Shown here piece by piece: positions 44,597-64,000 of a stretch of 64,000 bases of DNA. The position numbers and the translations under genes are program-made. Every line of letters starts with the position of its first letter. The first letter of the stretch is position 1. The DNA is from Chryseolinea lacunae (lineage in GTDB: Bacteria; Bacteroidota; Bacteroidia; Cytophagales; Cyclobacteriaceae): the NCBI RefSeq assembly GCF_016735595.1, contig NZ_JAERRB010000002.1:756996-820995 (forward strand), in the 5' to 3' direction. The notes beneath the pieces were generated by a model. The model made no database searches. It had not been told where the DNA came from and saw only the letters and a list, made by a program, of their open reading frames with translations.

Positions 44597-45235
44597 ATGG
44601 TAAAAATTTTTGTTTCTGAAAATAACATTTGCTGGGAGAAGTCGGTTTATGAAGCGGTTGCGAACCGGCTGCCGCAGGCGTTGTTGGAGAAGGCCGGCAA
44701 ATACAGGCGTTGGGAAGATGCACAGGCTTTCCTGATGGGAAGGTTGTTGCTCGGAAAAGGATTGGCGGCACAGGGTGTTAACGGCCACGAAGAAATAATT
44801 CAATACAACGCCTATAATCGCCCCTACATAGCGGGCGCGAACGTTGATTTCAACATATCGCACTCGGGCGGTTTTGTTGTTTGCGCGCTGGGATCAAACT
44901 GCAGGGTGGGAGTTGATATTGAAAGGATCCACGATGTGAACGTGCATGATTTTGCAGATTGTTTGACCGGCGAAGAGTGGCGCCGCGTGAACGCGCAAAA
45001 GGAGAGCCTGCCGGAATTTTTCAGGATCTGGACGATCAAGGAGGCCGTGATAAAGGCCGATGGCCGGGGACTGCAGATTCCGTTGAAGGAAATACAAAGT
45101 GACGAACAAATTTATATGGCCGACACGCTGTGGAGTATTTATCCGTTGCATATCGCGCAGGGCTATAAGGCGCATCTGGCCATCGACAAGCGTGTGGAAA
45201 CCATCGAAGTTCACACCATCTCAATTTTTGATTAG
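44597..45235 (+). CDS. Sfp-type 4'-phosphopantetheinyl transferase
   Basis: A 212-residue enzyme of the Sfp/Gsp class, which transfers phosphopantetheine from CoA to a carrier-protein serine. The signature is complete: FNISHSGGFVVCALG, then VGVDIERI and WTIKEAVIKADGRGL (W-x3-KEA-x3-K). It is the first gene of the lanthipeptide-type locus, 137 bases before LanB. Its expected partner would be the carrier domain at 52877, but that domain lacks the acceptor serine. The ATG at 44597 is preferred over GTG 44567. Confidence 0.9.
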   Translation: MVKIFVSENNICWEKSVYEAVANRLPQALLEKAGKYRRWEDAQAFLMGRLLLGKGLAAQGVNGHEEIIQYNAYNRPYIAGANVDFNISHSGGFVVCALGSNCRVGVDIERIHDVNVHDFADCLTGEEWRRVNAQKESLPEFFRIWTIKEAVIKADGRGLQIPLKEIQSDEQIYMADTLWSIYPLHIAQGYKAHLAIDKRVETIEVHTISIFD

Positions 45236-45372
45236 TCTGTAAAAAAAGCTGAAAGTGTTTTTAACATGCCGTGGGGTCGAGGCACCAGAGGAGTGTTGTG
45301 AAATGGATGGAGGCGACAGGTACTTTGAAACCACATTGTTGTTGCAGTACTGTTTCTTCAAAAAAACCACCT

Positions 45373-48300
45373 ATGATCACACATGAGTCGTACTTCATTT
45401 TGCGAACACCCCTCTTTCCCTATCACACCGCCGACCTGCTTGACATTGACGCTTTAAAATCAAAATTTTCAGACCCGATGGTGAAGGAAGCACTTTACCT
45501 GGCGTCGTCGGCGCTATATGCCAAGCTGGACCCATTCCTGCAGTCGGCACTAAGCGAAGGAGAGATGAAACGCGTGGCGTTCTCGCTCCAGAAATATTTG
45601 CTGCGGCTATCGTGCCGGCCCACGCCGTTTGGATTGTTCTCGGGGATAACAAAAGGAATCTGGTCAGACACTCCACAGACCATACTTCCCGCCAGCATTA
45701 AACGGCACACACGGCTCGACACAGACTTTGTTTCGACACTGGCGGCTGCCATGATGGCCCAACCGGAAATTGGCGATGCTGTGAAGTTCTTTCCAAACAA
45801 CACCTTGTATGCCGTTGGCAACACCTTGCGCTACATCGAATACACGATCGAGAATGGCAGACGGACCTACAGCCTCTCCAACCTCGACGACAACGACAGC
45901 ATTCGCCACGTGCTGGAGCAGGCGCGCCACGGAAAAAACAAGCGCGCCCTGGCGTTGAGTCTTGTGAACGACGACATCGATTTTGAAGAGGCCTATGGAT
46001 TTGTGGAATTGATTATCCGAAACCAACTGCTCACCAGCGAGCTTGAAATCAACCTGACCCGTTGCGACTATTTTTCGAATGTGCAATCGGTGCTGCAACA
46101 GCATCGCATACCGGCGCCGGTGTTGGATCACATTCAGAAATATCTCACGCAACTCGATCGCCAGGTAGCCCACGAAAATCTATCGGTCTATCCCGCGCTC
46201 ATGAACACGCTACGCCAGTTTGCAAACCCGAACAGTCCCGTAAACTATTTGCAGGTCGATGCATACCGGGATGGTACCGTGGCATTGACCCGGAACATTG
46301 CCGACACCGTTCAGGATGCTGTGGAGACGCTATCGGGACTGATGGCTCCGGAAGAAGGGAAAACGCTCGACGATTTTTGCAAGGCTTTTTACGAGCGCTA
46401 CGAGCATCAAACCATAGACCTTTGCATCGCCCTCGATCCGGAAGTGGGTGTGGGATATCCCGTGCAATATTCCGTTCCGATCGAGGATTCGATGTTGCTG
46501 AAAGACATTGGTTTTGCAAGGGAAAAAGATGCCGTGGTGTTTACGTCGTCTGACTTTTATAAATTTCTGTTGGGCAAATATCATGAAGCGATACAGCACA
46601 AACAGCCCCTGCTGTTGACAAAAGACGAATTGCGTCCCTTCATTAAACCCGGCAAACTTCCCTCTTCATTGTATGCCTTTGTTTCGCTTCACAACAAAAC
46701 CCTGGCCACCGGCGAGCAACACACCGATGTTTTCTTTACGGGCGCCTATGGCCCGTCGGCGGCCTCGCTCATTGCGCGGTTTTGTCACTTGCGCAAAGAC
46801 ATTGCAGATGATCTTTGTGAAACCCTGCGAAGGGAAGAGCAAAATTATGCCGATGCAATCTTTGCCGAAGTTGTTCACGCAAACGAGGCGCGCATCGGCA
46901 ACATCTCTACCCGGCCCGTGTTGCGACCTTACGAAATACCCATTCTCGCCCGAAGCGGTGTTGACAACGATCACACGGTGTCGATCAACGATCTGACGCT
47001 CGCGCTGGTGGGAGGGCGGCTGGTGCTGCGATCGAAGAAGCTGGACCGCGAAATTATTCCGCGACTCAGTTCGGCGCATAACTTTTCCAACGACACCATT
47101 GCGGCCTACAGGTTCTTGTGCGACTTGCAATATCAGGGCATTCAATCGTCGGTGATGTGGGACTGGGGGCCTTTGAAAAACGCACCCTACCTGCCCACGG
47201 TGAAAATGGGGAACGTGATTTTGTCGGCGGCAAAATGGCAATTAACCGCCGGAGAAGTTGAGGCCATCGCAAAGACCGATAACGTGAAGCGTGTAGTGGA
47301 GGCATTGCGAAAAAAGCATGGCATACCCCGCCGGGTGGTGTTGGGGGAACGCGATAACAAAATACCACTTGATCTGGAGAACGACAGCCATCTGCCGGTG
47401 CTTCAAAAGCTGGTGGAAACCATAAACGTGTTGGAGGAGAGTATTACGAACGAAGGAAATTTGCTTTTTCGCGATGCCGCCGGAAATGGCTACAGCAACG
47501 AATTGATTGTGCCCCTGGCAAACAACGCGGCGCAAGGTCACCACACACCAAGCCGAACGATGCCGCTGAAGGCAAGGCGGTCGTTCGCGCTGGGTTCTGA
47601 ATGGATATATTATAAGATCTATTGCAACACCAGGGCGTCAGATCAGGTGTTGCTGGCGTTGGTGAAGCCGCTGGCGGAGTACTTGTTGGAGCAGGGCATC
47701 GTTGACCGATGGTTTTTTATCCGCTATAGAGATCCCTTGAATCATGTTCGTGTCCGGTTCAACGGAAAAGGTTTGTTCTACCACACGGTGATCGCGGAAT
47801 TTCAGAAGGGAGCGCATCGGCTGATGGAGGCCGGCGTGATTTCCGACATCCAGACAACCACTTACAGACGCGAAATTGAGCGCTATGGCGACGAGAACAT
47901 CGACACCAGCGAGTCGTTGTTTTTTCTCGATTCAGAATCGGTCATTCAATTGCTGGCGCATGTAGACGACGAGGACTTGCGTTGGAAGCTGGGGCTGGCC
48001 CTGGTGAACCAATGGTTTCAGGTTTTCGACATGGGCGCGACTGAGCAACAGGCGATCGTGTATGATCTGCGACAGCAATTTTTCAAGGAGATGGATGTTA
48101 CGTCGGCGATGAAGCGCTCCCTGGCCGACAAACTGCGGGGCTATCGAACGGCCATCGGGCAAGTGTTGCAGGGAGATGCCTTTGCGGAACCTATACAGGA
48201 AATTATTCTGACACGCGGTGTGGCTATGCGGCCTTTTGCTGCAGAGATTTTGAAGAAACAACGTGAGGGAACGTTGTCGGTGCCCGTGCCGTTGCTGCTG

Positions 48301-48426
48301 AAACACTACATTCACCTTTCGTTGAACCGCCTGCTGCCCGCAAACCCCCGCTATCATGAAATGGTGCTCTACGACTTTTTGTTCCAGCACTATCAGTCAC
48401 AAGCGAAGCGAAACGTGGTGGTTTGA
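45373..48426 (+). CDS. Full-length class I lantibiotic dehydratase (LanB)
   Basis: A 1017-residue enzyme that dehydrates Ser/Thr of a precursor peptide using glutamyl-tRNA. The N-terminal glutamylation domain begins YFILRTPLFPYHT and has the family motif LLRLSCRPTPFGLFSG at about residues 74-90. The C-terminal elimination domain (SpaB_C/thiopep_ocin) starts near residue 740 with EWIYYKIYCNTRASDQVLL, followed by WFFIRYRDPLNHVRVRF. Both domains are on one chain, unlike the split LanB of pinensin. The conserved Arg/His-bearing motifs look intact. The ATG at 45373 is preferred to the upstream open frame because family homology starts there. Confidence 0.92.
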   Translation: MITHESYFILRTPLFPYHTADLLDIDALKSKFSDPMVKEALYLASSALYAKLDPFLQSALSEGEMKRVAFSLQKYLLRLSCRPTPFGLFSGITKGIWSDTPQTILPASIKRHTRLDTDFVSTLAAAMMAQPEIGDAVKFFPNNTLYAVGNTLRYIEYTIENGRRTYSLSNLDDNDSIRHVLEQARHGKNKRALALSLVNDDIDFEEAYGFVELIIRNQLLTSELEINLTRCDYFSNVQSVLQQHRIPAPVLDHIQKYLTQLDRQVAHENLSVYPALMNTLRQFANPNSPVNYLQVDAYRDGTVALTRNIADTVQDAVETLSGLMAPEEGKTLDDFCKAFYERYEHQTIDLCIALDPEVGVGYPVQYSVPIEDSMLLKDIGFAREKDAVVFTSSDFYKFLLGKYHEAIQHKQPLLLTKDELRPFIKPGKLPSSLYAFVSLHNKTLATGEQHTDVFFTGAYGPSAASLIARFCHLRKDIADDLCETLRREEQNYADAIFAEVVHANEARIGNISTRPVLRPYEIPILARSGVDNDHTVSINDLTLALVGGRLVLRSKKLDREIIPRLSSAHNFSNDTIAAYRFLCDLQYQGIQSSVMWDWGPLKNAPYLPTVKMGNVILSAAKWQLTAGEVEAIAKTDNVKRVVEALRKKHGIPRRVVLGERDNKIPLDLENDSHLPVLQKLVETINVLEESITNEGNLLFRDAAGNGYSNELIVPLANNAAQGHHTPSRTMPLKARRSFALGSEWIYYKIYCNTRASDQVLLALVKPLAEYLLEQGIVDRWFFIRYRDPLNHVRVRFNGKGLFYHTVIAEFQKGAHRLMEAGVISDIQTTTYRREIERYGDENIDTSESLFFLDSESVIQLLAHVDDEDLRWKLGLALVNQWFQVFDMGATEQQAIVYDLRQQFFKEMDVTSAMKRSLADKLRGYRTAIGQVLQGDAFAEPIQEIILTRGVAMRPFAAEILKKQREGTLSVPVPLLLKHYIHLSLNRLLPANPRYHEMVLYDFLFQHYQSQAKRNVVV

Positions 48427-48434
48427 CGCAGCTT

Positions 48435-48827
48435 CTATTTTTTGATGTTCATCACTTTTTCGATGCTTTGCAAAAATTGCTCAAACGAAAAGGGTTTTGT
48501 GAGATGATCGACCAGAAGAAGATTGTCGGACCGGAAAGCATCCATCTTTTTGCTGGATGGCGGCACACTCGACGTGATGATAAAATAGTAGGTGTTTTGT
48601 GATTCCACCGTCATTTTTTCGACGAGGTCGAAACCGGAGACGGACTCCAGATTTAAATCCAGAAACACAATATCCACGTGGTGAGAAGCGATGGCTTCGT
48701 ATGCTTCTTCAACACTTTCACATTTTCCGATCAGCTTAAGTTGGTCTAACCGGGTAATGTATTTTTCCAGAAGCTGCAGGGCCAGTGGTTCGTCTTCGAC
48801 GATGATGCAGTATAGTATTTTTTTCAA
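48435..48827 (-). CDS. Receiver-only response regulator
   Basis: A 130-residue CheY-like protein on the opposite strand to the rest of the locus. It shows the acidic pocket (CIIVEDEP), the phospho-acceptor Asp in DIVFLDLNLESVSGFDL near residue 57, then IITSS and LTKPFSFEQFL with the conserved Lys. No output domain. The start is TTG at 48825-48827. It lies 8 bases beyond the LanB stop, tail to tail, and diverges from the LytS kinase gene. It may act as a phosphate sink or competing partner of that kinase. Confidence 0.85.
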   Translation of the reverse strand: MKKILYCIIVEDEPLALQLLEKYITRLDQLKLIGKCESVEEAYEAIASHHVDIVFLDLNLESVSGFDLVEKMTVESQNTYYFIITSSVPPSSKKMDAFRSDNLLLVDHLTKPFSFEQFLQSIEKVMNIKK

Positions 48828-48906
48828 AACGGTAGTCCCTCCGAGCGACTTAGTGATTTGTATTTTTTGTTAAAAAGGGTATATTTGGTTACTTTCCTAA
48901 ATGATC

Positions 48907-48957: not shown

Positions 48958-49016
48958 CACTTTGATGATAGGTCTTTTTTTGGAAGTTGTTGGAGGTCGT
49001 ATTTATTGTTTTGTGA

Positions 49017-50147
49017 ATGAAACCTAACGTTTGGCGGAAGCTTCAGAACACCCGAGAATATCTCAAATACCTTCGCATTGCCCTGCATGTTCTGTTCTGG
49101 TTGATCATCTTCTTTTTCTTTATCTATGTAAAGAAACCATTGATGGGATTGTCGCTTGGCATGACGGCCCTGGTGGAAGTGAAAGATGTTATCATCATTT
49201 CAAGCATATTCTATTTCCTGTCCTACTACGTTGTTCCCAAATTGTTGTTCAAACGGAAGTATCTGCACATGGCCCTTTGTTTGGTGCTGGTCTATTACTT
49301 CTATGCCTTTGTGGCGTTTGTTGAATATTCGCTTCTGCCGCGGTTTGTCGACATCCCCGGCAAGGGATATCATATGTATGCACAACGCTTATTGAACGAG
49401 GGCGTGGTTGGAATTTTGCGTCTGAAGGATGCGCCCGAAATCTTACTCGACCTGTCGTATTTGCTTTCGCCGGCCCTCATCATGAAATTGGCCGTGACCG
49501 TGCTCAACCTCAGCACACAGGCTTTCAAATTGGAGCGCGACAACCTGAATCTTGAGCTGGCTTTTCTAAAGTCTCAGATCAACCCGCATTTCCTGTTCAA
49601 CACCCTCAACAATATTTATTCGCTCACGCTCGACAAAAGCGACAACGCGCCGGCGATCGTGCTGAAGCTGGCCGACCTGATGCGCTACACACTATACGAC
49701 TCCAATGCTCCCAGTGTGCCCCTGGAAAAGGAGTTGCTTTTTTTTGCCAACTATGTGGAGCTCGAAAAAATCAGGCACACCAAGCGCGTAACCATCGATG
49801 TGGAGTTTTATGGAAACAGCGATGGCCTTAGCATCGCACCCCTGATCATTTTTCCTTTCATTGAAAATGCATTCAAGCACGGCATCAACAAGTCGATCAA
49901 GCGATCGTGGGTGAGCATCAGGTTGGGTGCCGAAAACGGAGTGCTGAAAGCCGAGGTGGGCAATAGCCGCTTCAGTCCCACACCAACGGAAAGAGAGAAG
50001 GAGAAGAATAAGGGCAAGAAAGTGGGGGGCATTGGCATTGCCAACGCCCGCAAGCGCCTGGACCTGCTTTATCCGCACGCATATACCCTGAATGTTGTAG
50101 AAGATGTGTCGTCTTTTTTGATAAATTTGACGATAACGCTGAAATAG
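49017..50147 (+). CDS. LytS/YehU-type sensor histidine kinase
   Basis: A 376-residue membrane kinase. Four hydrophobic helices fill the first about 180 residues (LHVLFWLIIFFFFIYV, VIIISSIFYFLSYYVV, LVLVYYFYAFVAFVEY, LLSPALIMKLAVTVLNL). The His_kinase domain follows, with the phospho-acceptor in LKSQINPHFLFNTLNNIYSL near residue 192. The ATPase N-box is PFIENAFKHGIN and the G-box KVGGIGIANARKRLDLLY. It lies 40 bases before a LytTR regulator, forming a classic LytS/LytR pair inside the locus. It could sense the peptide or envelope stress. Confidence 0.92.
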   Translation: MKPNVWRKLQNTREYLKYLRIALHVLFWLIIFFFFIYVKKPLMGLSLGMTALVEVKDVIIISSIFYFLSYYVVPKLLFKRKYLHMALCLVLVYYFYAFVAFVEYSLLPRFVDIPGKGYHMYAQRLLNEGVVGILRLKDAPEILLDLSYLLSPALIMKLAVTVLNLSTQAFKLERDNLNLELAFLKSQINPHFLFNTLNNIYSLTLDKSDNAPAIVLKLADLMRYTLYDSNAPSVPLEKELLFFANYVELEKIRHTKRVTIDVEFYGNSDGLSIAPLIIFPFIENAFKHGINKSIKRSWVSIRLGAENGVLKAEVGNSRFSPTPTEREKEKNKGKKVGGIGIANARKRLDLLYPHAYTLNVVEDVSSFLINLTITLK

Positions 50148-50187: not shown

Positions 50188-50901
50188 ATGTCCACGATCA
50201 GGTGCCTCATAATTGACGACGAGCCGCTTGCTCAAAATGTACTGGAGACGTTCATTCAACGCATAAACTTTCTTACCCTGGTAGGCAAATGCGATAACGC
50301 CATAGATGCCTTCGACAAGGTGAATGCGGCGTCGGTCGATCTCATTTTTTGTGATATCCAGATGCCCCAGATAACCGGTATCGAGTTTGTGAAGGCGCTC
50401 AAGGAGACTCCTTATGTGATCTTCACGACAGCCTACCCGGAGTATGCCCTGGAAGGTTTTAATGTTGACGCCATAGACTACCTCATCAAACCCATTCCGT
50501 TTGAGCGTTTTCTGAAATCTGTTAACAAGGTGAAAATGCAGCAGAAGCAGGGCACTGCCGACGCGCATGAAGGCCAGACCAGCCAGACCAATCACATCTT
50601 TGTGAAGCAGGACTACAAGCTGGTGAAGATCAACTATGACGACATCATCTCTATAGAGGGCATGAAAGACTATGTGAAGGTGCATACGTCGCAGAAGGTC
50701 ATCATCACCCACATCACCATGAAACGGCTTGAAGAGCTATTGCCCAATACCCTTTTCTTCAGAAGCCATAAATCCTATATCGTAAGACTAAATGCCATAA
50801 AGGCTATAAATGGAAACGTTATTGAGCTCATCAATAACTTCCAGGCACCCATTGGGCTGCAATACCGAGATGCCCTGCTGAACCAACTCAAGAACATTTA
50901 A
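50188..50901 (+). CDS. LytTR-family response regulator
   Basis: A 237-residue regulator. The receiver domain (residues about 1-120) has IDDEP, phospho-Asp in LIFCDIQMPQITG near residue 54, FTTAYPEYA and LIKPIPFERFL. The LytTR DNA-binding domain (about 135-235) has IFVKQDYKLVKINYDDIISI, DYVKVHT, and FFRSHKSYIVRLNAI. LytTR domains bind paired direct repeats about two helical turns apart. Such pairs occur at 51017 and 55216, making it the likely activator of the precursor and the glycosyltransferase-LanC promoters. Confidence 0.92.
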   Translation: MSTIRCLIIDDEPLAQNVLETFIQRINFLTLVGKCDNAIDAFDKVNAASVDLIFCDIQMPQITGIEFVKALKETPYVIFTTAYPEYALEGFNVDAIDYLIKPIPFERFLKSVNKVKMQQKQGTADAHEGQTSQTNHIFVKQDYKLVKINYDDIISIEGMKDYVKVHTSQKVIITHITMKRLEELLPNTLFFRSHKSYIVRLNAIKAINGNVIELINNFQAPIGLQYRDALLNQLKNI

Positions 50902-50930: not shown

Positions 50931-50963
50931 AAGGCTTCCAGCACCCCTGGAAGCCTTGTTTTT
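50931..50963 (+). terminator. Rho-independent terminator after the LytTR gene
   Basis: A perfect 11-bp stem (AAGGCTTCCAG with CTGGAAGCCTT, 5-base loop) is followed by GTTTTTG. It separates the regulator operon from the precursor array, so the array must have its own promoter. Confidence 0.9.
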
Positions 50964-51016: not shown

Positions 51017-51086
51017 CATGTACGTCTAATTTATAGACATGTTGGTCTAAAATCTTTTCAGACGGCGTGGTGGCGATGTTACTTAG
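51017..51086 (+). promoter_or_regulatory. LytTR-type direct-repeat site and promoter of the precursor array
   Basis: Two 13-base direct repeats, CATGTACGTCTAA (51017-51029) and CATGTTGGTCTAA (51038-51050), are offset by 21 bases. A -7-like box TACTTAG follows at 51080-51086. The same repeats, offset and box position recur at 55216-55285. This places the transcript start near 51092, about 77 bases before the first precursor ATG. A 6-bp hairpin (ATCAAC/GTTGAT, 51091-51115) would sit at the transcript's 5' end. Confidence 0.7.
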
Positions 51087-51168: not shown

Positions 51169-51297
51169 ATGAAAACTAACAAACTCACCCTCGCAAAAAG
51201 AACAGTAGCCCGCTTGAATGCCAACGCCAGCAACAACCGCTCCGTGGTGCTTTCATTTCTCCCCATGTGCACCGAGCTGAAGGCACGCGGCATCTGA
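51169..51297 (+). CDS. Class I lanthipeptide-type precursor peptide 1
   Basis: A 42-residue peptide, first of five. Leader: MKTNKLTLAKRTVARLN, matching the L-x-L-x-K-x-[TI]-V-x-x-L leader of Bacteroidota class I lanthipeptides. Core: NNRSVVLSFLPMCTELKARG, with Ser25, Ser29, Cys34 and Thr35. Ser29 and Cys34 could form one lanthionine ring of the S-F-L-P-M-C segment. It shares its last 15 residues, except the final one, with peptides 2 and 3. It lies 77 bases after the predicted transcript start. Confidence 0.88.
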   Translation: MKTNKLTLAKRTVARLNANASNNRSVVLSFLPMCTELKARGI

Positions 51298-51339: not shown

Positions 51340-51468
51340 ATGAAAACGCAAAGACTGTCCCTCTCCAAAAGAACTGTTGCAAGACTAAGCGGCCACGCGG
51401 GCTGCCATCGCTCTATAGTGCTGTCGTTCCTGCCCATGTGCACCGAACTGAAAGCGCGCGGCAACTAA
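51340..51468 (+). CDS. Class I lanthipeptide-type precursor peptide 2
   Basis: A 42-residue peptide, 42 bases after peptide 1. Leader MKTQRLSLSKRTVARLS. The core region CHRSIVLSFLPMCTELKARG has an additional Cys22 not found in peptides 1, 3 or 4, so a second thioether (Cys22 with Ser25 or another Dha) is possible. It differs from peptide 3 only at that position (Cys versus Ser), showing recent duplication. Confidence 0.88.
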   Translation: MKTQRLSLSKRTVARLSGHAGCHRSIVLSFLPMCTELKARGN

Positions 51469-51512: not shown

Positions 51513-51641
51513 ATGAAAACGCAAAGACTGTCCCTCTCCAAAAGAACTGTTGCAAGATTAAGCGGCCATGCCGGCAGCCATCGCTCTATAGTGCTGTCGT
51601 TCCTGCCCATGTGCACCGAACTGAAAGCCCGCGGCAACTAG
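51513..51641 (+). CDS. Class I lanthipeptide-type precursor peptide 3
   Basis: A 42-residue peptide identical to peptide 2 except Ser22 for Cys22; the nucleotide sequences are nearly identical as well. The leader has the same L-S-L-S-K-R-T-V-A-R-L motif. Ser17, Ser22, Ser25, Ser29 and Thr35 are potential dehydration sites, and Cys34 is the only thiol. Upstream it has the CAACAACCCC motif shared by neighbours, likely part of the translation start region. Confidence 0.88.
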   Translation: MKTQRLSLSKRTVARLSGHAGSHRSIVLSFLPMCTELKARGN

Positions 51642-51680: not shown

Positions 51681-51809
51681 ATGAAAACGCAAAAACTATC
51701 ACTCTCCAAAAGAACTGTTGCAAGATTAAACGCACACGCCGGCAGCCACCGCGCTGTAGTACTGTCGTTCCTCCCCATGTGCACGGAACTGAAGCCGCGG
51801 GGCTGCTGA
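51681..51809 (+). CDS. Class I lanthipeptide-type precursor peptide 4
   Basis: A 42-residue peptide with leader MKTQKLSLSKRTVARLN and core SHRAVVLSFLPMCTELKPRG, then a C-terminal Cys42. The Ser25 of the other copies is Ala, and a Pro is added near the end. The terminal Cys could close a C-terminal ring. It keeps the invariant S-F-L-P-M-C-T-E-L. Confidence 0.88.
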   Translation: MKTQKLSLSKRTVARLNAHAGSHRAVVLSFLPMCTELKPRGC

Positions 51810-51874: not shown

Positions 51875-52006
51875 ATGGAAACCCAAAAACTTACTTTCAG
51901 AAAAAGAACTGTAGCAAAATTGAGTGCATCCATGCCCTGTGGGCGCACGATAGCACCATCATTTCTTCCAACGTGCACAGCTTCCCAACCGGGTGGCGCA
52001 CGATGA
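51875..52006 (+). CDS. Class I lanthipeptide-type precursor peptide 5 (divergent)
   Basis: A 43-residue peptide. The leader keeps the motif (METQKLTFRKRTVAKLS). The core region has diverged: CGRTIAPSFLPTCTASQPGG, with Cys22, Thr25, Ser29, Thr33, Cys34, Thr35 and Ser37. The S-F-L-P-x-C-T centre is kept, pointing to a conserved ring. Two Cys and more Ser/Thr make it the member with most thioether options. It is separated from peptide 4 by 65 bases. Confidence 0.82.
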   Translation: METQKLTFRKRTVAKLSASMPCGRTIAPSFLPTCTASQPGGAR

Positions 52007-55215: not shown

Positions 55216-55285
55216 CATGTACGTCTAAAACGGATCCACGTTGGTCTAAAAGTTTTTCTGCCCGAGGGCATTCTGCCGTATTTAG
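55216..55285 (+). promoter_or_regulatory. Second LytTR-type direct-repeat site and promoter
   Basis: CATGTACGTCTAA (55216-55228) and CACGTTGGTCTAA (55237-55249) are again 21 bases apart, with the -7-like box TATTTAG at 55279-55285 exactly as far from the repeats as in the 51017 site. The sequence between the repeats differs, so this is a conserved site and not a recent copy. It would drive the glycosyltransferase-LanC block, with a leader of about 220 bases before 55514. Confidence 0.7.
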
Positions 55286-55475: not shown

Positions 55476-55513
55476 TAGGTGCGCTGACCATCACACACTA
55501 ATTGTTCACTGCT

Positions 55514-56290: not shown

Positions 56291-56312
56291 GCGTACCTAG
56301 TTTTACACACCG

Positions 56313-57245
56313 ATGAAAATCATACAAAGTTTTTGGTCTAAGCCGTCAACGTTGAACCTGAGCAGCCGGAGCAACGGAGGCTGGGCCGAAAGAAAATATC
56401 AGTTGATGGCCTATTCGCTGAGCTGCCTGCAGCTTCGCAGATTCTATGACCAGGTGGAATTGGTGACCGACGAATTGGGTAGCCAACTGTTTGCCGCACT
56501 TGATCTTCCCTACACAAAGGTTGTGCTGGCGCTCGATGCCCTGAACGAATATGATGCAGACTTGTGGTCGCTCGCCAAAGTGCACACGTTTTGCAACCAA
56601 CGCGAACCCTTTCTCCATGTCGATCACGACGTTTTTATTTTTGAAAAGCTCCATGCGGCACTGGAGCATGCACCGCTGGTGATGCAAAACAAAATGTTGA
56701 TGCCTCCCGAATGCAATTTGATGTTGCTCGACATGATGGCCGGTTTTGCGTTTGTGCCAACATGTTTTTCGGACCATGCACAGAGCGATGAAGATTTTAT
56801 CAGTGTTTTCAACCCGGGCGTGAGCGGTGGCAGCGATGTGGAGTTTTTGGAGGCATATGCCCGCGAGGTTTTTGCGTTTGTGAACAACAACCTCCACATC
56901 ATCGATGCCCATCTTCCGTATCTGGAACGCGACCTGATGATGAGCTCGGGCACCAACAAAATCGATATTATGAATGCAATTATTGAGTCTTACATTTTTA
57001 CCTGCTTCACCGGCAAGCACAACCGAAACGTTGCCTGTGTGCTGGACGATGCAAGCTACAATACGTTTCCTCAGGCGCAGTTCATCGGGCAGCGGGGAAG
57101 TAACGCCTACGTGCACCCCATTTTTGGGTTCAAGAAGAACATGACGGTTTGTGCTCAGCTGGAATATAAACTCCGCAAGCATCATCCCGATCACTATTTC
57201 AAGATCATTGATATTCTCGAAGAACTTGACACGATACAGCTATGA
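56313..57245 (+). CDS. DUF6734-like protein, possible glycosyltransferase fold
   Basis: A 310-residue protein. The opening MKIIQSFWSKPSTLNLSSRS, then GGWAERKYQLMAYSLSCLQL, and FLHVDHDVFIFEKL near residue 105 fit a Bacteroidota family I know as DUF6734. Its D-x-D-like DHD and overall pattern suggest a GT-A fold. Biochemistry is unknown. It is 22 bases after the GT2 gene and overlaps the LanC-like start by 4 bases (ATGA), so the three proteins are made together. Confidence 0.6.
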   Translation: MKIIQSFWSKPSTLNLSSRSNGGWAERKYQLMAYSLSCLQLRRFYDQVELVTDELGSQLFAALDLPYTKVVLALDALNEYDADLWSLAKVHTFCNQREPFLHVDHDVFIFEKLHAALEHAPLVMQNKMLMPPECNLMLLDMMAGFAFVPTCFSDHAQSDEDFISVFNPGVSGGSDVEFLEAYAREVFAFVNNNLHIIDAHLPYLERDLMMSSGTNKIDIMNAIIESYIFTCFTGKHNRNVACVLDDASYNTFPQAQFIGQRGSNAYVHPIFGFKKNMTVCAQLEYKLRKHHPDHYFKIIDILEELDTIQL

Positions 57246-59266
57246 ACGTAACAAAAAGTATTTCATTCCTGGAAGAAGCCATCACCCTTGGCGACAAAAT
57301 AGCACGCCGTGGCGACAGCGTGCTGGATCCGCTCAAAAGCGATCGCAAGCAGCATGCTTCGGCATCGCTGGCAAACGGTGTTTCGGGCGTGACCCTGTTC
57401 CTGATCGAGCTCTATCGCCAGACGCAGGACCCACGGTATATTTCGCTGGCCAACCAGGCCGTGAAAAACCTGGTGCGGTTCGTGAACACACAACCCGCAG
57501 CCGACTATTCGTTTGCACACGGCCGAATGGGCGTGGCCTACACGCTGCTTCAGTTCTACAAGGTGAGCCTGAACGCAGTTTGCCTTGACGAAGCAAAAAA
57601 GATTGCACAAAAAAGCGCAGAGCAATATCTCAACAACCCCGGCACATTCAACACCTTTCACAAGGGACGAGCCGGCAGCCTTCTGGTGCTTCTTCACCTG
57701 CATGCACTCACCGACGAAAAATGGGTTCTCGATCTGATAAACCTCTATGTCAACAAACTCATGCGCGATGTGCGCCACGGCCGCCAGGGATTGTATTGGA
57801 AAAGTGCGCAGGTGAATGCACACAGCGAATGCGGATTTCCGCTTGGCGCATCGGGCATTGGCTATGTGTTGCTGGAGCTTGGTCGCTATTTTGAAAACGA
57901 CACCTTCTACACCTTCGCCGAACAGGTCTTCTTCTTTGAAGACTATTACAGGAGCGAAGAGAGAAATAACTGGCCCAACCAAAGTGCTGAAACCCGTAAT
58001 GCGGAGGATTATTTTATTCAGCGCGAAAATTTTAAGACAGGCAATTTCGAGGCGTTCCGGCAATCGGAAGACCTCGTGTCGTATAACGGTGCGGCGGGCA
58101 TTGGATTGGCCCGAAGCCGCGCCTATGAACTATTAGGAAAAACACGGTATCGAACCGATATGGATAATGTATTTGACAAAGTGTCGACGACCATGAGCGA
58201 CCTGCCGGCGTATGGACTATACGACGGAAAAATAGGCTGTGGCATGTTTGCACTGGAAGCCTACCGCATTACAAAGGATGTGAAGTATCTGCAGTTTGCC
58301 AAACGGACGGCACGCGAACTGAGCTATGGTGTTGACTATTCGACACAGGTTGAAGGCCGCGAAGATTTTAGTCTGTATCATGGCATGAGCGGTGTGGGAT
58401 ATTTTTATATGATGTTGCAAAACCCGTTCGACACCACATCGTTGGTGTTGCCCGGGCTGGAGTTTCCCATTGGCGACGCCCACGAAACAAGCGCAATGCC
58501 GTTCATCGGCATGTCGCGGGTCGAATTGGCAAAACGACTGTTGGGTAAAATTTTCTACCGCACCATTTTTATGTTGGAGAACCTGGCGCCTGCGGCATGG
58601 CGTGAATTTCTGAATGTGGCGATTGGCGAAGCAGACATCAAGAACAGATTCATGATGTTTGCAGAAGCCGTGATTCCCACCCTCGATGAGAAATACATTC
58701 AGGCGATTAGCGACATCTTCAACCTGGAACGTGCCAAGGTGCGACTGGAAGACAACATGATTAGCGAGTCGTTTGTGCAAATGAACGAAATCATGGCGTT
58801 GGAAAAAGCAGAGGCTTTGGTTGGGCAGCCCGACGGCCTTTGTGAAGATGTGTGGCTGTCGCTTGCCGACAACATTGTGCAGGTGCAAACCTCCATCAAT
58901 CCCAACATGAAAGTGGATCTGGGATTTTCTGAAAACGTGTTCAAGAGCGATCGTCAACACACCGTGCTGCTAAAAGCAACAAGCCGGGTTTCGATGGTAA
59001 AAGACATTCGTCAGACAACGCTGGAGTTTAAAACACGCCGGAACGATGCACACGTTCAGGAGATCTATCCAAACAAAGTACAGTCGCTGTTGCTGTCGAG
59101 GCTGAACGAGTCTTGCCAGGTGAAAACACTGATGAACGACATTTCGAAAATTTGCCATGTGGCGTTGACCAGCGAAGATGCGATGACACCGGCCGCCGTG
59201 CTGCGACAGATAAAAGATGATCTCATTGCGGGCATCCTGGTGGCTAACCCCACGGCAAGTGTTTAG
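57242..59266 (+). CDS. LanC-like protein lacking the Zn ligands, with C-terminal extension
   Basis: A 674-residue protein. Residues about 35-400 form an alpha/alpha barrel with seven G-x-x-G helix turns (LANGVSGVTL, FAHGRMGVAY, FHKGRAGSLL, PLGASGIGYV, SYNGAAGIGL, LYDGKIGCGM, LYHGMSGVGY), as in LanC cyclases. The fifth and sixth turns normally hold Cys and Cys-His. Here they have Tyr281, and Tyr327-Asp328. The 46-residue spacing equals that of Cys284 and Cys330 in NisC, supporting the alignment. The last about 240 residues are not recognised. It is probably not a Zn-dependent cyclase; a chaperone or adaptor role is possible. Confidence 0.82.
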   Translation: MNVTKSISFLEEAITLGDKIARRGDSVLDPLKSDRKQHASASLANGVSGVTLFLIELYRQTQDPRYISLANQAVKNLVRFVNTQPAADYSFAHGRMGVAYTLLQFYKVSLNAVCLDEAKKIAQKSAEQYLNNPGTFNTFHKGRAGSLLVLLHLHALTDEKWVLDLINLYVNKLMRDVRHGRQGLYWKSAQVNAHSECGFPLGASGIGYVLLELGRYFENDTFYTFAEQVFFFEDYYRSEERNNWPNQSAETRNAEDYFIQRENFKTGNFEAFRQSEDLVSYNGAAGIGLARSRAYELLGKTRYRTDMDNVFDKVSTTMSDLPAYGLYDGKIGCGMFALEAYRITKDVKYLQFAKRTARELSYGVDYSTQVEGREDFSLYHGMSGVGYFYMMLQNPFDTTSLVLPGLEFPIGDAHETSAMPFIGMSRVELAKRLLGKIFYRTIFMLENLAPAAWREFLNVAIGEADIKNRFMMFAEAVIPTLDEKYIQAISDIFNLERAKVRLEDNMISESFVQMNEIMALEKAEALVGQPDGLCEDVWLSLADNIVQVQTSINPNMKVDLGFSENVFKSDRQHTVLLKATSRVSMVKDIRQTTLEFKTRRNDAHVQEIYPNKVQSLLLSRLNESCQVKTLMNDISKICHVALTSEDAMTPAAVLRQIKDDLIAGILVANPTASV

Positions 59267-59312
59267 TGCCGATGATGATATCGTGACCATTGCTTATTTA
59301 AAATATGTTCGT

Positions 59313-60842
59313 ATGAAAAAAGCTATTCTATTTCTTTTGGTATGGTGCGGAGCAATTCTTGCATTCGGTCAGGACAAGTATTGGGTCTTTTTTAAGGATA
59401 AGGAGTTTAAGGCCGACGTTTCGTATATCTCCCGTGAGGCGGCCATCAACAGGCAACGGCTGCAACTGAATGTTACTCAATATTCAGACGCGCCTGTGAA
59501 CGAAGCCTATGTTCGCCAGCTGCAATCAGCCACCGGAGCGCAGATTATCAACTATTCGAAATGGCTCAATGCCGTGACGACGCGCCTCACCGACCAGCAA
59601 GCCTGTGACGTTGCACTTATGCATGGCGTTGTGTCGGTTCGGCGAGTGCAGAACCGGGTCACGCTGGCCGCAGCAAAGTCGTCGCCGGAAAGTTTTGCGT
59701 TGGGCCAGATCAATGCATGGGCCCTGGAAGAAGCCGGCTTGTCGGGCCGCGGTGTGAACGTGGGCGTTATCGATGGCAACTACTATTGTGCCGACATAGA
59801 CCCGGCATTGCAACATGTTTTTGCAAACAAGCAAATCGTTGCCGCACGTGACTTTGCCGAATCGAAATCGCCGGGCGACTTGTTCAAGCCGCTACGGAAC
59901 GACAATGAGATGCACGGCAGCGCAGTGCTTAAGCTGATTGCCGGCTACGACAAAAACAAGGATGAACGATTTGGTGCGGCACCCTCGGTGCGATTTTACC
60001 TGGCGCGCACAGAAGTTTCGGATAAGGAATTTAGAGGCGAAGAGGACTATTGGATCTCGGCCCTCGAATGGATGGACAGCGTTGGTGTTCGTCTGGTGAA
60101 TTCGTCGCTGGGCTATACGTCAGGCTTTGACAATCCCGAAGAGAATCATACACCCGAGCAAATGGATGGAACGGCCAGCCCGATTTCAAGCGTGGCCAAC
60201 ATTGCCACACGCGACAAAGGCATGGTGCTGGTGATTGCCGCCGGCAACGAGGGCGAGAATCTCGACTGGCAGGTGGTGGCCGCGCCGGCCGATGCCAAGG
60301 GTGTGATTACCGTTGGCACCACCGATGTGTTTGGTCTCAAAAAGCGATGGAGTTCTATCGGCCCCAGTGCATTAACATATGTTAAACCAAACGTATCGGT
60401 CTATTCTTCAACCGGCACGTCCTACTCGGCGCCGGTCATCACCGGAATTGTGGCGTGTATGCTAGAGAAGAATCCTTCGCTAACGAGCCACCAGGTGTTG
60501 AACATTCTTCAAGCGTCCAGTCACCTTGCGGGCTATGGAAACAACTACCTGGGCTATGGGGTGCCCGATGCGCGCAAAGTGCTTGTGTTGCTGAGCGACA
60601 GTAACGCCGTGGTTGCGCCGGTGAGTGAAGAAGTGAAACAGGCGGGCAATGTTTTCAGCCTTCGCGTTCCTGAGTCGGAAAGTTTGTCGGCAGTGGTGTT
60701 TCACAAAGGCGACCAATTCTTTGTGCGCGACCAGGAATACATCGACATCATCAAAGAGAGCCTGTCGGTAACAAAGCCTTATCGCGCCAGACGATCTACC
60801 GTGGTATTGAAAAATAGAACCATTGAAATCATTTGGGAGTAG
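59313..60842 (+). CDS. Exported S8 (subtilase) peptidase, candidate leader peptidase
   Basis: A 509-residue protease with a signal peptide (MKKAILFLLVWCGAILAFGQ) and an inhibitor-like propeptide (residues about 20-115). The catalytic triad looks intact: Asp in VGVIDGNYY near 153, His in EMHGSAVLKLIAGYD near 200, Ser in GTSYSAPVITGI near 370, plus oxyanion Asn in AAGNEGEN. It is 47 bases after the LanC-like gene. Class I lanthipeptide leaders are often removed by subtilases (LanP). The signal peptide means processing would occur after export of the peptide. Confidence 0.88.
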   Translation: MKKAILFLLVWCGAILAFGQDKYWVFFKDKEFKADVSYISREAAINRQRLQLNVTQYSDAPVNEAYVRQLQSATGAQIINYSKWLNAVTTRLTDQQACDVALMHGVVSVRRVQNRVTLAAAKSSPESFALGQINAWALEEAGLSGRGVNVGVIDGNYYCADIDPALQHVFANKQIVAARDFAESKSPGDLFKPLRNDNEMHGSAVLKLIAGYDKNKDERFGAAPSVRFYLARTEVSDKEFRGEEDYWISALEWMDSVGVRLVNSSLGYTSGFDNPEENHTPEQMDGTASPISSVANIATRDKGMVLVIAAGNEGENLDWQVVAAPADAKGVITVGTTDVFGLKKRWSSIGPSALTYVKPNVSVYSSTGTSYSAPVITGIVACMLEKNPSLTSHQVLNILQASSHLAGYGNNYLGYGVPDARKVLVLLSDSNAVVAPVSEEVKQAGNVFSLRVPESESLSAVVFHKGDQFFVRDQEYIDIIKESLSVTKPYRARRSTVVLKNRTIEIIWE

Positions 60843-60859
60843 GTGATAACTGCAGCAAT

Positions 60860-62182
60860 ATGAAAACATTCAAGAAACAATATGTCCTCCTGCCGCTGGT
60901 GTCGTTGTTTGTAGCCGGCGTGGTGTCGGCACAGTCAAATGAAAAGCCGGCAATAAAAAATGTGAAGGCCAAGCTTGACAAGGCACACAACCGACTGGTG
61001 GTGCAATATGATGTGCGCGATAAAGAAGAGTCGGTGGTGAGCATTGCCCTGAAAATATCGGACGACGGCGGGGAATCCTATTTGGTGAACACAACTTCTG
61101 CGAAGGGTGATGTGGGATATCCGGTAAAGGTAGGGAAGCGCAGAAGAATATTCTGGAATCTTCCCGCGCGCGCGCGCATCGAAGACCTGAAGATTAAACT
61201 GGTGGCCGACGATCTTTATAAAATTGATATCCAGTCGATCGTGAACCAGGTCGACTCTGCGCGTGTCCGCAACCTCATTCTGGCCATTAACGGAGAGCGC
61301 AACTATCATTCGCCCCAAACCCTTGCACACCTCGGCGAGGTGCGCAAAACAATCGACAACAGCTACCGTGGCACGGGCATCACGCCCTACCGGCAAATAT
61401 TTGCATATCCAAAAGAAGTGAAGGATCACGTGGGCGAGAACATCATCGGGCGCATTGCCGGGCAGTATGAAGAAAACGAAACCTATCTTCTCACCGCCCA
61501 CTATGATTGCGCACCAAACAGCCCCGGGGCCGACGACAACGCCACGGGTGTGGCCGGCATGCTGGAGGCCATGCGCGTCTTGTCGCAATATGATTTTGAA
61601 AAGTCTATCAAGTTCATAAATTTCGATCTCGAAGAAGATGGATGTCTGGGCAGCAAGGCCTACGTTGACAAGAACGGCATTCGGCGATATGAAAACATTG
61701 CCAGCGTAATCAACTACGACATGATCGGATTTTCGTCTGACGAAGATAGCAGCCAATATATACCCGAAGGCTTTGACCAACTTTTTCCGGTGGCCTACAG
61801 CGAAGTGTCGCAGAATTATTTCAGAGGCAATTTTGTAATAAACACCTCCAACGAACAGTCTGTTGAATTCGGGCAACGATTCACCCAGGCGGCGGGAAAA
61901 TATGTGCCGAACCTGAAAGTGGTTTCGCTCATGGCCGAGGGGGATGGAGAGGCAACGCCCAATCTTGCAGCAAGCGATCACTATGAATTTTGGGTGAATG
62001 GGTTTAGTGCACTTCACATCGGCGATGGCGGCGAGTCACGCAATGTGTACCTCAATGGTCCCGACGATGTGTTGAAGAATATCAACTACAGGTTTGTTTG
62101 TGATGTGGTGAGGGCTACGGTGGGAGCCTTTGCGGAAGTGGCCGGGGCACGACATGTTACGATCGTATACGTGTCGTTATAG
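60860..62182 (+). CDS. Exported M28 family metallopeptidase
   Basis: A 440-residue protein with a signal peptide ending VVSAQ. A beta-rich N-terminal domain is followed by the M28 core. The Zn ligands and catalytic Glu are in LTAHYDCAPNSPGADDNATG and NFDLEEDGCLGSKAY, with later Asp in NYDMIGF and His in ALHIGDGG. Members are aminopeptidases or carboxypeptidases. It is 17 bases after the S8 gene and may trim the peptide after leader cleavage. The ATG at 60860 is chosen because it starts the signal peptide. Confidence 0.85.
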   Translation: MKTFKKQYVLLPLVSLFVAGVVSAQSNEKPAIKNVKAKLDKAHNRLVVQYDVRDKEESVVSIALKISDDGGESYLVNTTSAKGDVGYPVKVGKRRRIFWNLPARARIEDLKIKLVADDLYKIDIQSIVNQVDSARVRNLILAINGERNYHSPQTLAHLGEVRKTIDNSYRGTGITPYRQIFAYPKEVKDHVGENIIGRIAGQYEENETYLLTAHYDCAPNSPGADDNATGVAGMLEAMRVLSQYDFEKSIKFINFDLEEDGCLGSKAYVDKNGIRRYENIASVINYDMIGFSSDEDSSQYIPEGFDQLFPVAYSEVSQNYFRGNFVINTSNEQSVEFGQRFTQAAGKYVPNLKVVSLMAEGDGEATPNLAASDHYEFWVNGFSALHIGDGGESRNVYLNGPDDVLKNINYRFVCDVVRATVGAFAEVAGARHVTIVYVSL

Positions 62183-62256
62183 AACGGGCGATGCCAAGGA
62201 AGCGCATTCCCGCATGAACGGATATTTTAAAATTTGTAAACTCAAAACGTAGCAGA

Positions 62257-64000
62257 ATGATTAAGACGTATTTTAAAACGGCTATTCGAAATATGTTAAG
62301 GCATAAGTTTTATTTCCTTATCAATATTTTTAGTCTGTCCATCGGCATGACCAGCAGTTTGGTGATCCTGTCGTATGTGTGGGGTGAGCTAAGTTTTGAT
62401 AAATTTCATGAGGAAGCGCAGAACGTGAATCGTGTGAACCTTGAATTGATATGGGGGGGAGAAGTGACACAACAATCCACCACGCCGCCGCCACTGGCAC
62501 ACACGTTGAAGGACGAATTTCCCGAAGTGACGGCCGCCACGCATATTTATAAGTTTGATGAAATTATTGTTCGCGATGGCGACAATTTTTATGCCGAAGA
62601 GGCGCTGGCGGTTGACTCCAGCTTCTTTAAAGTATTCACCTTCCCGTTTGCAGAAGGCAATCCGGCCACAGCGTTAAGCAAGCCCAACAGCATCGTGATA
62701 ACACAGGAAACGGCCAGGCGCTATTTCAACGGAAAGCAATCGGCCTTGGGCGAAGTGTTGCAGGTGGGCAAAGACAATGTTGCCTACACGGTGACGGGCG
62801 TCGTGAAAGACATTCCTGAAAATTCTCACTTTCGCTTCACCATGCTCACGTCTATCTATTCGCTTGACTTTGTGCAGGAAGAAAAAGACAACTGGAGTTG
62901 GCCTCGTTTGTCAACGTATGTGCGGCTAAAAAACGGCACATCGGGATCAACGCTGGAATCAAAATTTCCGGACATGTGCACACGAACGATGGGGCAGCCG
63001 CTTGTAGACTGGAAAAAGAATGGTGGCGGCTACACGTTGTTTTTGCAACCCATCACAAAAATTCATTTGTATTCGGGACATCTGCTGAGCCACCTCGGCC
63101 CCACCGAAGACATCCAGTATCTTTATATACTGGGCCTCGTAGGCATATTTATTGTGCTTATTGCCAGCATTAACTTCATGAACCTTTCCACCGCGAAGTC
63201 GGCAAATCGTGCAAAGGAATCGGGCATCAGGAAAGTGTCGGGGTCAACCCGGTCCGATCTCATTCTGCAGTTTCTCACCGAGTCGGTGATGCTCACCTTC
63301 TTCGCACTGTTCATCGCCCTGCTGGTGGTCTATGCCCTGCAAAATCAGCTTGGTGAAATTTTAGGAAAGACATTCTATTTTTCCATGATTTTCCAGGATG
63401 TGCGCGTCATCGGATTGATCCTGCTGCTCACCATTTTCATCGGCGTCATATCCGGATGTTATCCTGCGTTTTACCTCACATCGTTTAGCACAGTCGATAT
63501 CCTTAAAGGAAAAATCAAGTCGGGCATAAATGCAAAAGGCATTCGTAGCGCCCTGGTGATCTTTCAGTTCGCACTGTCTATCGGTTTCATCATCTGCACA
63601 TCATTGGTATATCAACAATTGCAGCACATGCGCGAACAAAAACTGGGCTTCGACAAAGAGAATGTTGTGGTGATTGTGAATTCGAACGATCGGTTAATGG
63701 AGAGCAGAATGGCCTTCAAGCAAGAGTTGTTGCGCCAGAGCCAGGTTGAAAGTGTTTCGTTCACCAACAGCTTTCCCGGCAAAGAGTATCGCGTGTCGGC
63801 GCTTAAGCCGGAGGGCGCATCGCAAGACATCCTGCTCAAGTCTTCTTTCATTGACTACGACTATCTGCAAACCCTGAAAATCGATCTTCTTGCCGGACGA
63901 AATTTTTCACAGGAAATGACGTCCGATATGATGACCGACGACGAAGCGTCGGTGATCATCATCAACGAAGCTGCCGCAGAACAGATCAAGGTAGACGATC
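62257..64000 (+). CDS. FtsX/MacB-type ABC transporter permease, 3' end outside the window
   Basis: An open frame of 581 codons runs to the window edge. It begins MIKTYFKTAIRNMLRHKFYF, then a first membrane helix (INIFSLSIGMTSSLVILSYV) and a large periplasmic MacB_PCD domain (VNRVNLELIWGGEVTQQS, FPEVTAATHIYKF). Three membrane helices (YILGLVGIFIVLIASINFMN, LTFFALFIALLVVYAL, LILLLTIFIGVISGCYPAFY) and another from about residue 425 (ALVIFQFALSIGFIICTSLV) follow. Bacteroidota proteins of this type are about 800 residues with two permease halves. They export peptides or confer self-protection. Here it follows the peptidases 74 bases downstream, fitting export or immunity. Confidence 0.85.
   Translation, partial: MIKTYFKTAIRNMLRHKFYFLINIFSLSIGMTSSLVILSYVWGELSFDKFHEEAQNVNRVNLELIWGGEVTQQSTTPPPLAHTLKDEFPEVTAATHIYKFDEIIVRDGDNFYAEEALAVDSSFFKVFTFPFAEGNPATALSKPNSIVITQETARRYFNGKQSALGEVLQVGKDNVAYTVTGVVKDIPENSHFRFTMLTSIYSLDFVQEEKDNWSWPRLSTYVRLKNGTSGSTLESKFPDMCTRTMGQPLVDWKKNGGGYTLFLQPITKIHLYSGHLLSHLGPTEDIQYLYILGLVGIFIVLIASINFMNLSTAKSANRAKESGIRKVSGSTRSDLILQFLTESVMLTFFALFIALLVVYALQNQLGEILGKTFYFSMIFQDVRVIGLILLLTIFIGVISGCYPAFYLTSFSTVDILKGKIKSGINAKGIRSALVIFQFALSIGFIICTSLVYQQLQHMREQKLGFDKENVVVIVNSNDRLMESRMAFKQELLRQSQVESVSFTNSFPGKEYRVSALKPEGASQDILLKSSFIDYDYLQTLKIDLLAGRNFSQEMTSDMMTDDEASVIIINEAAAEQIKVDD

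Follow-up and report, generated by a model that had tools for sequence, protein, structure and literature searches.

In a 64,000-nt stretch of the Chryseolinea lacunae genome (the window; G000:C12:756996-820995, from a 7.9 Mb genome in 29 contigs), a LanB dehydratase, five tandem short peptides, a LytS-type membrane histidine kinase and a LytTR response regulator probably constitute a quorum-sensing-type switch that turns on the expression of nonribosomal peptide synthetase (NRPS) genes, assisted by an UpxY-family antiterminator. Several parts of this picture have sequence support, namely a LanB-peptide-LytS-LytTR cassette that recurs across Bacteroidota, the operators and the genes behind them, the identity of UpxY, and the heptose and fatty acyl-AMP ligase (FAAL)-NRPS genes. 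Coordinates below are window positions (1-64,000) unless a genome (G) or locus (L) label precedes them.

The LanB gene (45373..48426, plus strand) encodes both dehydratase domains at full length (Lant_dehydr_N, E = 3e-134; Lant_dehydr_C, E = 7e-59; both above cut-off); its open reading frame (ORF) is listed from a GTG at 45271, and the ATG at 45373 is the likelier start. The protein has the glutamylation and elimination domains of class I enzymes, and a profile made from six cassette LanBs can be aligned with NisB almost throughout (positions 24-1004), with the RYG and HxxxNR regions in the aligned part. Abutting LanB on the minus strand is a lone receiver-domain protein (48435..48827; response-regulator family matches over the receiver part). 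It is followed on the plus strand by LytS (49017..50147; PF06580, E = 1e-25), with four transmembrane-like segments and a KSQINPHFLFN motif, by the LytTR regulator (50188..50901; best family matches BtsR/LytR), and by a terminator-like hairpin of 11 pairs (50931..50957, plus strand). Five peptide genes then lie in tandem on the plus strand between 51169 and 52006, and behind them the NusG paralogue UpxY (52323..52832, plus strand; NF033644, 141.8 bits, cut-off 100). A preliminary description of the window, made from its letters alone, had named the intact LanB, the five precursors, the LytS/LytTR pair and a dedicated NusG; family searches bear out its gene list, apart from the corrections given below.

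The first four peptides have 42 aa each (51169..51297, 51340..51468, 51513..51641 and 51681..51809) and the fifth has 43 aa and is the most divergent (51875..52006). Between peptide 1 and peptides 2-4, the proportion of synonymous differences (pS = 0.63-0.67) greatly exceeds that of nonsynonymous differences (pN = 0.14-0.16), so these four ORFs are coding. By eye, the same four carry the LxLxKx5L leader motif. All window peptides have a conserved SFLP-M/T-CT core with at least one Cys each. The NCBI model for Bacteroidota class I leaders (lant_leader_L1a) gives 13.8-19.9 bits, all below its cut-off of 22, in the four window peptides, of five, that were scanned and in the peptide of G163, a genome of the same genus; peptide 1 scores 19.5 bits.

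A sequence search with the precursors across 295 genomes of the family matched G000 itself, G163 and, doubtfully, G103, whose match has a stop codon. As G163 was the sole sound relative, the comparison was centred on LanB synteny. The LanB loci screened came from two samples, one of the family (matches in 22 of 390 genomes) and one of the class (in 42 of 395), and from 15 named loci. The sampling was partial: 60 regions were fetched, 58 of them around listed LanB matches, with weaker and fragmentary matches left out, and one region (L104) contained no LanB. After exact duplicates and fragments shorter than 1,800 bases were dropped and near-identical sequences kept, 80 distinct LanB rows were compared. 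A cassette was called when LytS and LytTR lay within 3.5 kb of LanB, and a C39 peptidase was counted within 6 kb.

By this measure, 17 of the 80 distinct Bacteroidota LanB rows, the window included, belong to a cassette, with the nearest LytS 0-1,155 bp from LanB. With LytS at 3.0 per Mb, its density in 12 of these genomes, chance would place one this near in about 0.85 of the 80 rows, a calculation that treats rows as independent, which they are not. The other 63 rows comprise 36 with a C39 peptidase and 27 with neither; C39 is near only two of the 17 cassette rows. On the LanB tree, which is a fast tree with many weak branches, the 17 cassettes need six label changes (shuffled mean 15.6; none of 500 shuffles as low) and fall in five or six LanB clades, and the association has therefore arisen or moved several times. 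Further, UpxY is found near LanB in four of the 17 cassettes and in none of the 63 other rows. The preliminary description was right to single out the NusG gene. With the family model used for the window protein, UpxY scores 138.9 (G163), 118.1 (L077), 147.1 (L078) and 154.6 bits (G573).

A short candidate ORF (35-67 aa) stands beside LytS or LanB in all 17 cassette loci, although some are weak. These candidates are supported by leader-like starts, by Ser/Thr-rich ends and, in six loci, by operators; among three Mucilaginibacter species the peptide is conserved with pS = 0.37-0.45 and pN = 0.14-0.25. Propeptide, membrane kinase and LytTR regulator are thus encoded together in 17 loci, with doubtful candidates in L113, L118 and L126. 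Cys is absent from the candidate peptide in 11 of the 17 loci, where no lanthionine can therefore form.

Cassette architecture varies in detail. The three Mucilaginibacter loci (L065, L067, which is from Mucilaginibacter lappiensis ATCC BAA-1855, and L068) carry a pair of LanB genes separated by an alpha/beta-hydrolase-like gene (by eye), and a further LytTR gene stands behind the peptide. L087 (5585-8676) has two tandem LytS-type kinases between LanB and LytTR. Small proteins that by eye resemble degenerate receiver domains occur in L103 (11237-11593), L107 (11281-11688) and L108 (8117-8482); for L103 and L108, the NCBIfam search gave no matching family.

The genes around the cassette are far less constant than the cassette itself. 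G163, the nearest relative with the peptide, has LanB, lone receiver, LytS, LytTR (67% identical), peptide and UpxY in the order of the window, followed by a set of sugar genes (GmhA-like, HldE and GmhB, and others by eye), by a permease and by an FAAL-NRPS-like gene with 31% identity to that of the window genome. Its neighbourhood matches the window phosphatase, permease, NRPS and UpxY; L078 matches the window's phosphopantetheinyl transferase (PPTase) and UpxY, and L077 matches UpxY only. In L077, the cassette (LanB, LytS, LytTR, a tiny peptide and UpxY) lies near a cupin/JmjC protein and a radical-SAM gene that is accompanied by repeated short peptides; in L078, cassette and UpxY lie near AMP-ligase, PPTase-like, FabA-like and ketosynthase genes. 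Overall, within stretches of 20-23 kb per locus, none of 11 further proteins of the window has a relative at 13 of the 16 remaining cassettes.

These comparisons bear on the pathway proposed in the preliminary description, where LanB, a LanC-like protein, a carrier/epimerase-like protein, sugar enzymes and the peptides would together make a single dehydrated and glycosylated product. All of the genes save the lone receiver lie on one strand and the two operators of the window are identical, as such a pathway would have it. However, G163 keeps LanB, peptide, UpxY, heptose genes and NRPS and has no LANC_like gene by family search of its genome, most cassettes share none of the 11 proteins, and G573 has its cassette and its NRPS genes on separate contigs. 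The preliminary description had itself named relatives that retain LanB and precursors without the carrier, sugar and LanC-like genes as evidence against a single system, and such relatives are what the screen found; we now consider the single product very unlikely. Its observation that LanB, peptides, regulators and NRPS-type genes belong together stands as an association, with a link that looks regulatory and not biosynthetic. A hybrid lanthipeptide-NRPS product was also considered once the FAAL-like NRPS had been found, and was dropped as G163, L077 and L078 show the same regulatory genes before different operons.

The regulatory link is suggested by a shared operator. Operator 1 (GTACGTCTAA-N11-GTTGGTCTAA; 51020..51050, plus strand) has a 21-bp period and lies 149 bp before peptide 1. 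Operator 2 (55219..55249, plus strand) has both 10-mers and the 21-bp period of operator 1, and lies about 285 bp before the glycosyltransferase-like gene with which the series of genes leading to the NRPS begins. The two have 18 of 18 half-site letters in common, against 14 for the best of 20 shuffles. Paired near-identical 9-10-mers, 21 or 22 bp apart, were found upstream of several peptide genes; a repeat period of 21-22 bp is typical of the LytTR family.

A leave-one-locus-out matrix, seeded with half-sites chosen by eye from seven loci, was used to scan 20-40 kb per locus on both strands. With the model built from the other loci, operators 1 and 2 tied as the best sites of 24 kb. In six of the 17 loci, the best site (in the window, tied best) is 89-164 bp upstream of the peptide on the same strand; in L103 the second-best site is at the peptide, and the remaining 10 loci have none there among the four listed sites. 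The spacing of high-scoring pairs (score of at least 17) distinguishes the cassettes. In particular, the 17 cassette loci (0.41 Mb) contain 10 pairs at 21 bp and one at 22 bp, with 18 spread over 15 other spacings between 14 and 30, whereas 59 other loci (1.06 Mb) contain two pairs at 21-22 bp and 49 over the other 15 spacings. Six of the 11 high-scoring cassette pairs are at a peptide, one is operator 2 and two precede double-glycine (GG)-type peptides (L075 and L103). A simpler test for upstream repeats in 16 loci gave shuffle values below 0.05 only in L091, L107, L108 and L114 and was not significant for the window (0.565) or G163 (0.485); the operator claim is based on the leave-one-locus-out scan and on whole-genome counts. 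A strong 21-bp operator-like pair also occurs in L109 (14987, minus strand), near a LanB without LytS and with no clear gene directly behind it.

Across the 7.9 Mb window genome, a scan allowing up to three mismatches returned three sites, and the reversed pattern one. Two of the three, operators 1 and 2, are exact, and the third, on contig 25, stands roughly 139 nt upstream of where a condensation-domain gene of the NRPS region starts. The whole G163 genome has two sites (at the peptide, and between receiver and LytS) against none for the control. Four genomes of the same genus without a matching LanB yielded one site, with three mismatches, against four for the reversed pattern. The element TTAG-T/A-A occurs exactly 63 bp from the operator start in all four promoters examined (the three window-genome sites and the G163 peptide), and the single control-genome site lies inside a coding frame and lacks it. 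A scan for sigma-70 promoters was uninformative (5 found, 4.0 expected).

Similar sites occur away from the cassette in other genomes. A degenerate 21-bp pattern with at most one mismatch, applied to five further cassette genomes, found 12 sites against 3 for the reversed control (G573, 3 and 0; G673, 3 and 0; G501, 5 and 1; G768, 1 and 1; G732, 0 and 1). For example, G573, which belongs to another family, has its cassette and peptide site on contig 1 and two other sites on contig 2, all three with a common spacer type (GCGGA-A/T-GC-C/G-GG). One contig 2 site precedes UpxY, nitroreductase-like, acyl carrier protein and NRPS genes, a PPTase (by tblastn) and methyltransferase- and thioesterase-like genes (by eye); behind the other, a short ORF is followed by FAAL and NRPS genes. 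In G768, GG-leader peptides, a radical-SAM maturase (nearest YhhB, below cut-off) and a C39 peptidase lie behind the site, and a site in G191 (locus L075) precedes GG-type peptides and a C39 peptidase. In G501, one site lies before ferritin-like, Cys-rich (weak BufA2 match) and MbnB/TglH/ChrH-family genes (L185 5056-8129), another before a GG-type peptide, another about 285 nt before the start of a 3,223-aa protein (L187 6751-16422), and a further one 579 nt from a sugar-phosphate-deaminase-like gene (by eye). Of the G673 sites, two stand before genes for an XRE-like regulator and for an ABC-transporter-like protein (by eye).

Constant LanB, peptide, LytS and LytTR, with the operator where it is found, combined with a variable biosynthetic output, argue for a signal-receptor pair with a regulon and not for one pathway. 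Alternatively, LytS may sense something else, such as membrane stress or the NRPS product, with LanB and peptides as one more target within the regulon (a narrow-spectrum toxin, for instance). The operator does precede the peptides as well as other secondary-metabolite genes, as that explanation would predict. Against it, LanB, peptide, LytS and LytTR stay together across separate LanB clades, and their neighbours or targets vary (NRPS, radical-SAM, MNIO-type and ketosynthase genes, the second and third of the kind for ribosomally synthesized and post-translationally modified peptides (RiPPs)). A constant cassette with changing targets is as expected of a signal-receptor pair, and we regard the other-signal explanation as very unlikely.

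Besides the cassette and UpxY, the window encodes several further genes, all on the plus strand. An Sfp-type PPTase (44567..45235; ACPS PF01648, E = 6e-15), as the preliminary description had it, precedes LanB and likely primes the NRPS carrier domains. A didomain protein (52877..54505) matches PP-binding and Condensation and aligns with PvdL; a peptidyl carrier protein (PCP) domain and a condensation/epimerase-like domain are thus present as first described, but the latter has HQLLMDN where PvdL has HHLVVDG, and the protein is probably no ordinary epimerase. The heptose-phosphatase-like enzyme is a GmhB-like heptose bisphosphate phosphatase of the haloacid dehalogenase superfamily (54590..55183), with scores just below cut-off (NF006506, 154 of 178 bits; TIGR00213, 146.5 of 149.6). 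Of two glycosyltransferases proposed, the first gene after operator 2 (55502..56290) probably is one, on weak matches (Glyco_tranf_2_2, 2e-7; Glyco_transf_7C, 6e-6); the second (56313..57245) is a DUF6734 protein (PF20508, 9e-76), a family without assigned function, and is unproven as a glycosyltransferase. Behind a LanC-like gene follow a subtilase (S8; 59313..60842, ORF listed from 59217; PF00082, 2e-26), an M28-like aminopeptidase (60860..62182, ORF listed from 60833; LapA family, 1.5e-9, far below its cut-off) and an ADOP/MacB-type ABC permease (62257..64000, continuing beyond the window; TIGR03434, 4e-55, below its cut-off). The S8, M28 and permease assignments of the preliminary description are borne out, the last two by these sub-threshold matches, and the export signals of both peptidases were recognized by eye.

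The window cuts the locus, and the NRPS continuation beyond position 64,000 lay outside the view of the preliminary description. Directly after the permease (L003:1781 onwards) is an NRPS gene with the order FAAL-like-PCP-C-A-PCP-C-A (C, condensation; A, adenylation), which runs off contig 12. The window genome has 22 condensation-domain matches, three here on contig 12 and 19 on contig 25, where they lie at 470-570 kb, up to the contig end, and the end cuts a domain. Towards the far side of the contig 25 NRPS region there are GmhA-like, HldE and HldD genes. Together, these genes may form one NRPS cluster of more than 100 kb with a heptose donor pathway, spanning contigs 12 and 25. With GmhB in the window and GmhA, HldE and HldD beside the contig 25 NRPS genes, heptose decoration of the NRPS product appears to be a better fit to the sugar genes than decoration of 42-aa peptides, and the regulated product is probably a heptose-bearing lipopeptide.

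The LanC-like protein (57242..59266; 674 aa, of which residues 40-396 match LANC_like at 4e-38 and about 270 form a C-terminal extension) was first assumed to be a cyclase, and this was dropped since its zinc-binding residues are missing: it has SYNG and YDG in place of WCYG and CHG. Its LanC-like assignment in the preliminary description stands, without the zinc ligands. It scores 96.5 bits against the class III model NF038151 (cut-off 575) and is not LanKC-type. LANC_like has 15 matches in 12 cassette genomes, three of which, weak-scoring, lie just behind the peptide (L091, L078 and L114), and all three zinc ligands are absent from these proteins as from the window protein. In contrast, three LanCs near C39-linked LanB genes keep WCYG and CHG. 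A loss of thiol chemistry in the cassette LanC-like proteins would fit Cys-free peptides, with the window as an exception. The second LanB of the window genome, in L076 (G000:C12:393000-412999), is accompanied by two C39 peptidases, a GG-type peptide that contains Cys and a LanC whose zinc ligands are intact; judged by this gene content, L076 is an ordinary lanthipeptide locus and an internal contrast to the window locus.

The LanC-like protein also bears on a nisin-like explanation, in which the five peptides are an antibiotic lanthipeptide that doubles as inducer and the NRPS genes do no more than share its regulator. Five copies of a core with SFLP-M/T-CT, each with Cys, a full LanB, and a LanC-like gene, peptidases and a permease behind the second operator would all suit it. 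The missing zinc ligands, the lack of a LANC_like gene in G163, the 11 of 17 candidate peptides without Cys and the scarcity of C39 at cassettes argue against it, and we judge it unlikely.

Several observations weigh against the proposed peptide-controlled switch. The best-scoring site is away from the peptide in 11 of the 17 loci, the high-scoring pairs of L113 and L126 precede no evident target, and in two of the four cassettes with UpxY (L077 and L078) no shared operator was found between peptide and UpxY. The third site of the window genome has three mismatches, and the reversed control also gave one such match. Elsewhere, the start of the G573 FAAL is about 1.35 kb away from its operator, with another ORF in between; several G501 and G673 sites precede genes without a clear role; and G732, whose peptide site has a 22-bp period outside the pattern, gave no match. 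Short ORFs occur in any intergenic stretch, so their presence alone is weak evidence, and the candidates of L113, L118 (despite its operator) and L126 have no clear class I leader. The window peptides contain Cys and depart from the Cys-free trend. The linkage of the contig 12 and contig 25 ends is not assembled. The main gap in the signalling interpretation is the missing exporter: no dedicated exporter or leader protease was noticed beside stand-alone cassettes, where C39 was the only exporter searched for.

With these points in view, the proposed switch would work as follows. LanB would dehydrate Ser/Thr residues in the short peptides, and the processed peptide would exit the cell and accumulate. 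LytS would sense the peptide in the membrane and phosphorylate LytTR, which would bind the paired direct repeats with 21-bp period and activate the peptide-UpxY transcript, creating a positive feedback. LytTR would also activate the glycosyltransferase/LanC-like/peptidase/permease/FAAL-NRPS run and the third promoter at the NRPS condensation-domain gene, and UpxY would allow RNA polymerase to read through these very long operons. More broadly, we give even odds to the proposition that LanB can act as a pheromone synthase: short, Ser/Thr-rich and often Cys-free peptides would become dehydroamino-acid signals, read by LytS-LytTR across Bacteroidota, that control both neighbouring and distant clusters of the NRPS, ketosynthase and RiPP types, with amplification through UpxY.

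Peptide signals paired with two-component systems are a known kind. The agr propeptide is processed by an AgrB-type protease. As in agr (AgrBDCA, Gram-positive), a short propeptide gene, a membrane kinase and a LytTR regulator are found together, and a direct-repeat operator upstream of the propeptide is the best or tied-best site in six of the 17 loci, the window included, and not in the other 11. AgrA is reported to bind direct repeats upstream of P2 and P3 (PMC4227749). The cassette differs from agr in its modifying enzyme, the LanB dehydratase, in its PF06580-type kinase and in its proposed outputs, which are NRPS and RiPP genes of Gram-negative Bacteroidota. NisR is an OmpR-type regulator. 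The nisin and subtilin systems (NisK-NisR) likewise have a LanB-modified peptide with its own two-component system, the peptide being presumably dehydrated here; NisK is reported to detect nisin (PMC8895600). The cassettes, in contrast, have a regulator with best matches to BtsR/LytR and not an OmpR-type one, short and often Cys-free peptides, LanC-like proteins without zinc ligands, and probable control of other metabolites, also at a distance. Lipolanthines use a class III synthetase. Like the window, the lipolanthine (microvionin) loci combine lanthipeptide-type with fatty-acid/NRPS-type genes; here, however, these genes appear linked by regulation only and the LanC-like protein is of another type. 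The LxLxKx5L motif is reported for leaders of Bacteroidetes class I lanthipeptides (PMC7268733). Peptides 1-4 of the window carry this motif by eye and the LanB is related to those of that group, which includes pinensin; the cassettes differ from it in the rarity of C39 (2 of 17 against 36 of 63 rows). The NusG paralogue LoaP is reported to promote read-through of the difficidin and macrolactin antibiotic operons (PMC12691694), and by analogy UpxY would fit a read-through factor for very long operons. UpxY differs in that it follows the peptides (window, G163) or stands directly behind an operator (G573).

To our knowledge, the triggers of Bacteroidota biosynthetic clusters are mostly unknown. 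Among the open-access literature matches listed (titles and abstract starts, a scope outside which most subscription papers fall), no LanB-dependent signal or LanB-LytS-LytTR cassette in Bacteroidota was found. Bacteroidota, and Chitinophaga above all, are reported to be rich in biosynthetic clusters with unknown products, and Chitinophaga loci for chitinopeptin and pinensin are described (PMC9248904); another report gives LanB as absent from Bacteroidales (PMC10352776). In 2010, Slin_0903 and Slin_2131 of Spirosoma linguale were listed as 'LanB only', without LanA or LanC, and the accessible part of that paper describes no regulator link for them (PMC3091789). What would be new here is LanB as the enzyme of a signal, with often Cys-free peptides, in a Gram-negative phylum and with NRPS control at a distance.

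If the pheromone-synthase proposition is true, it would explain why some Bacteroidota have LanB genes without a lantibiotic cluster, giving a function to genes on record since 2010 (PMC3091789), and the LanC-like proteins of cassettes, which lack zinc ligands, would be a partner put to a new use. If the LanB-made peptide is the on-switch, added peptide or an expressed regulator could wake such clusters, the 21-bp operator would show under which signal each cluster stands, clusters on other contigs included, and a Gram-negative branch would be added to peptide quorum sensing.

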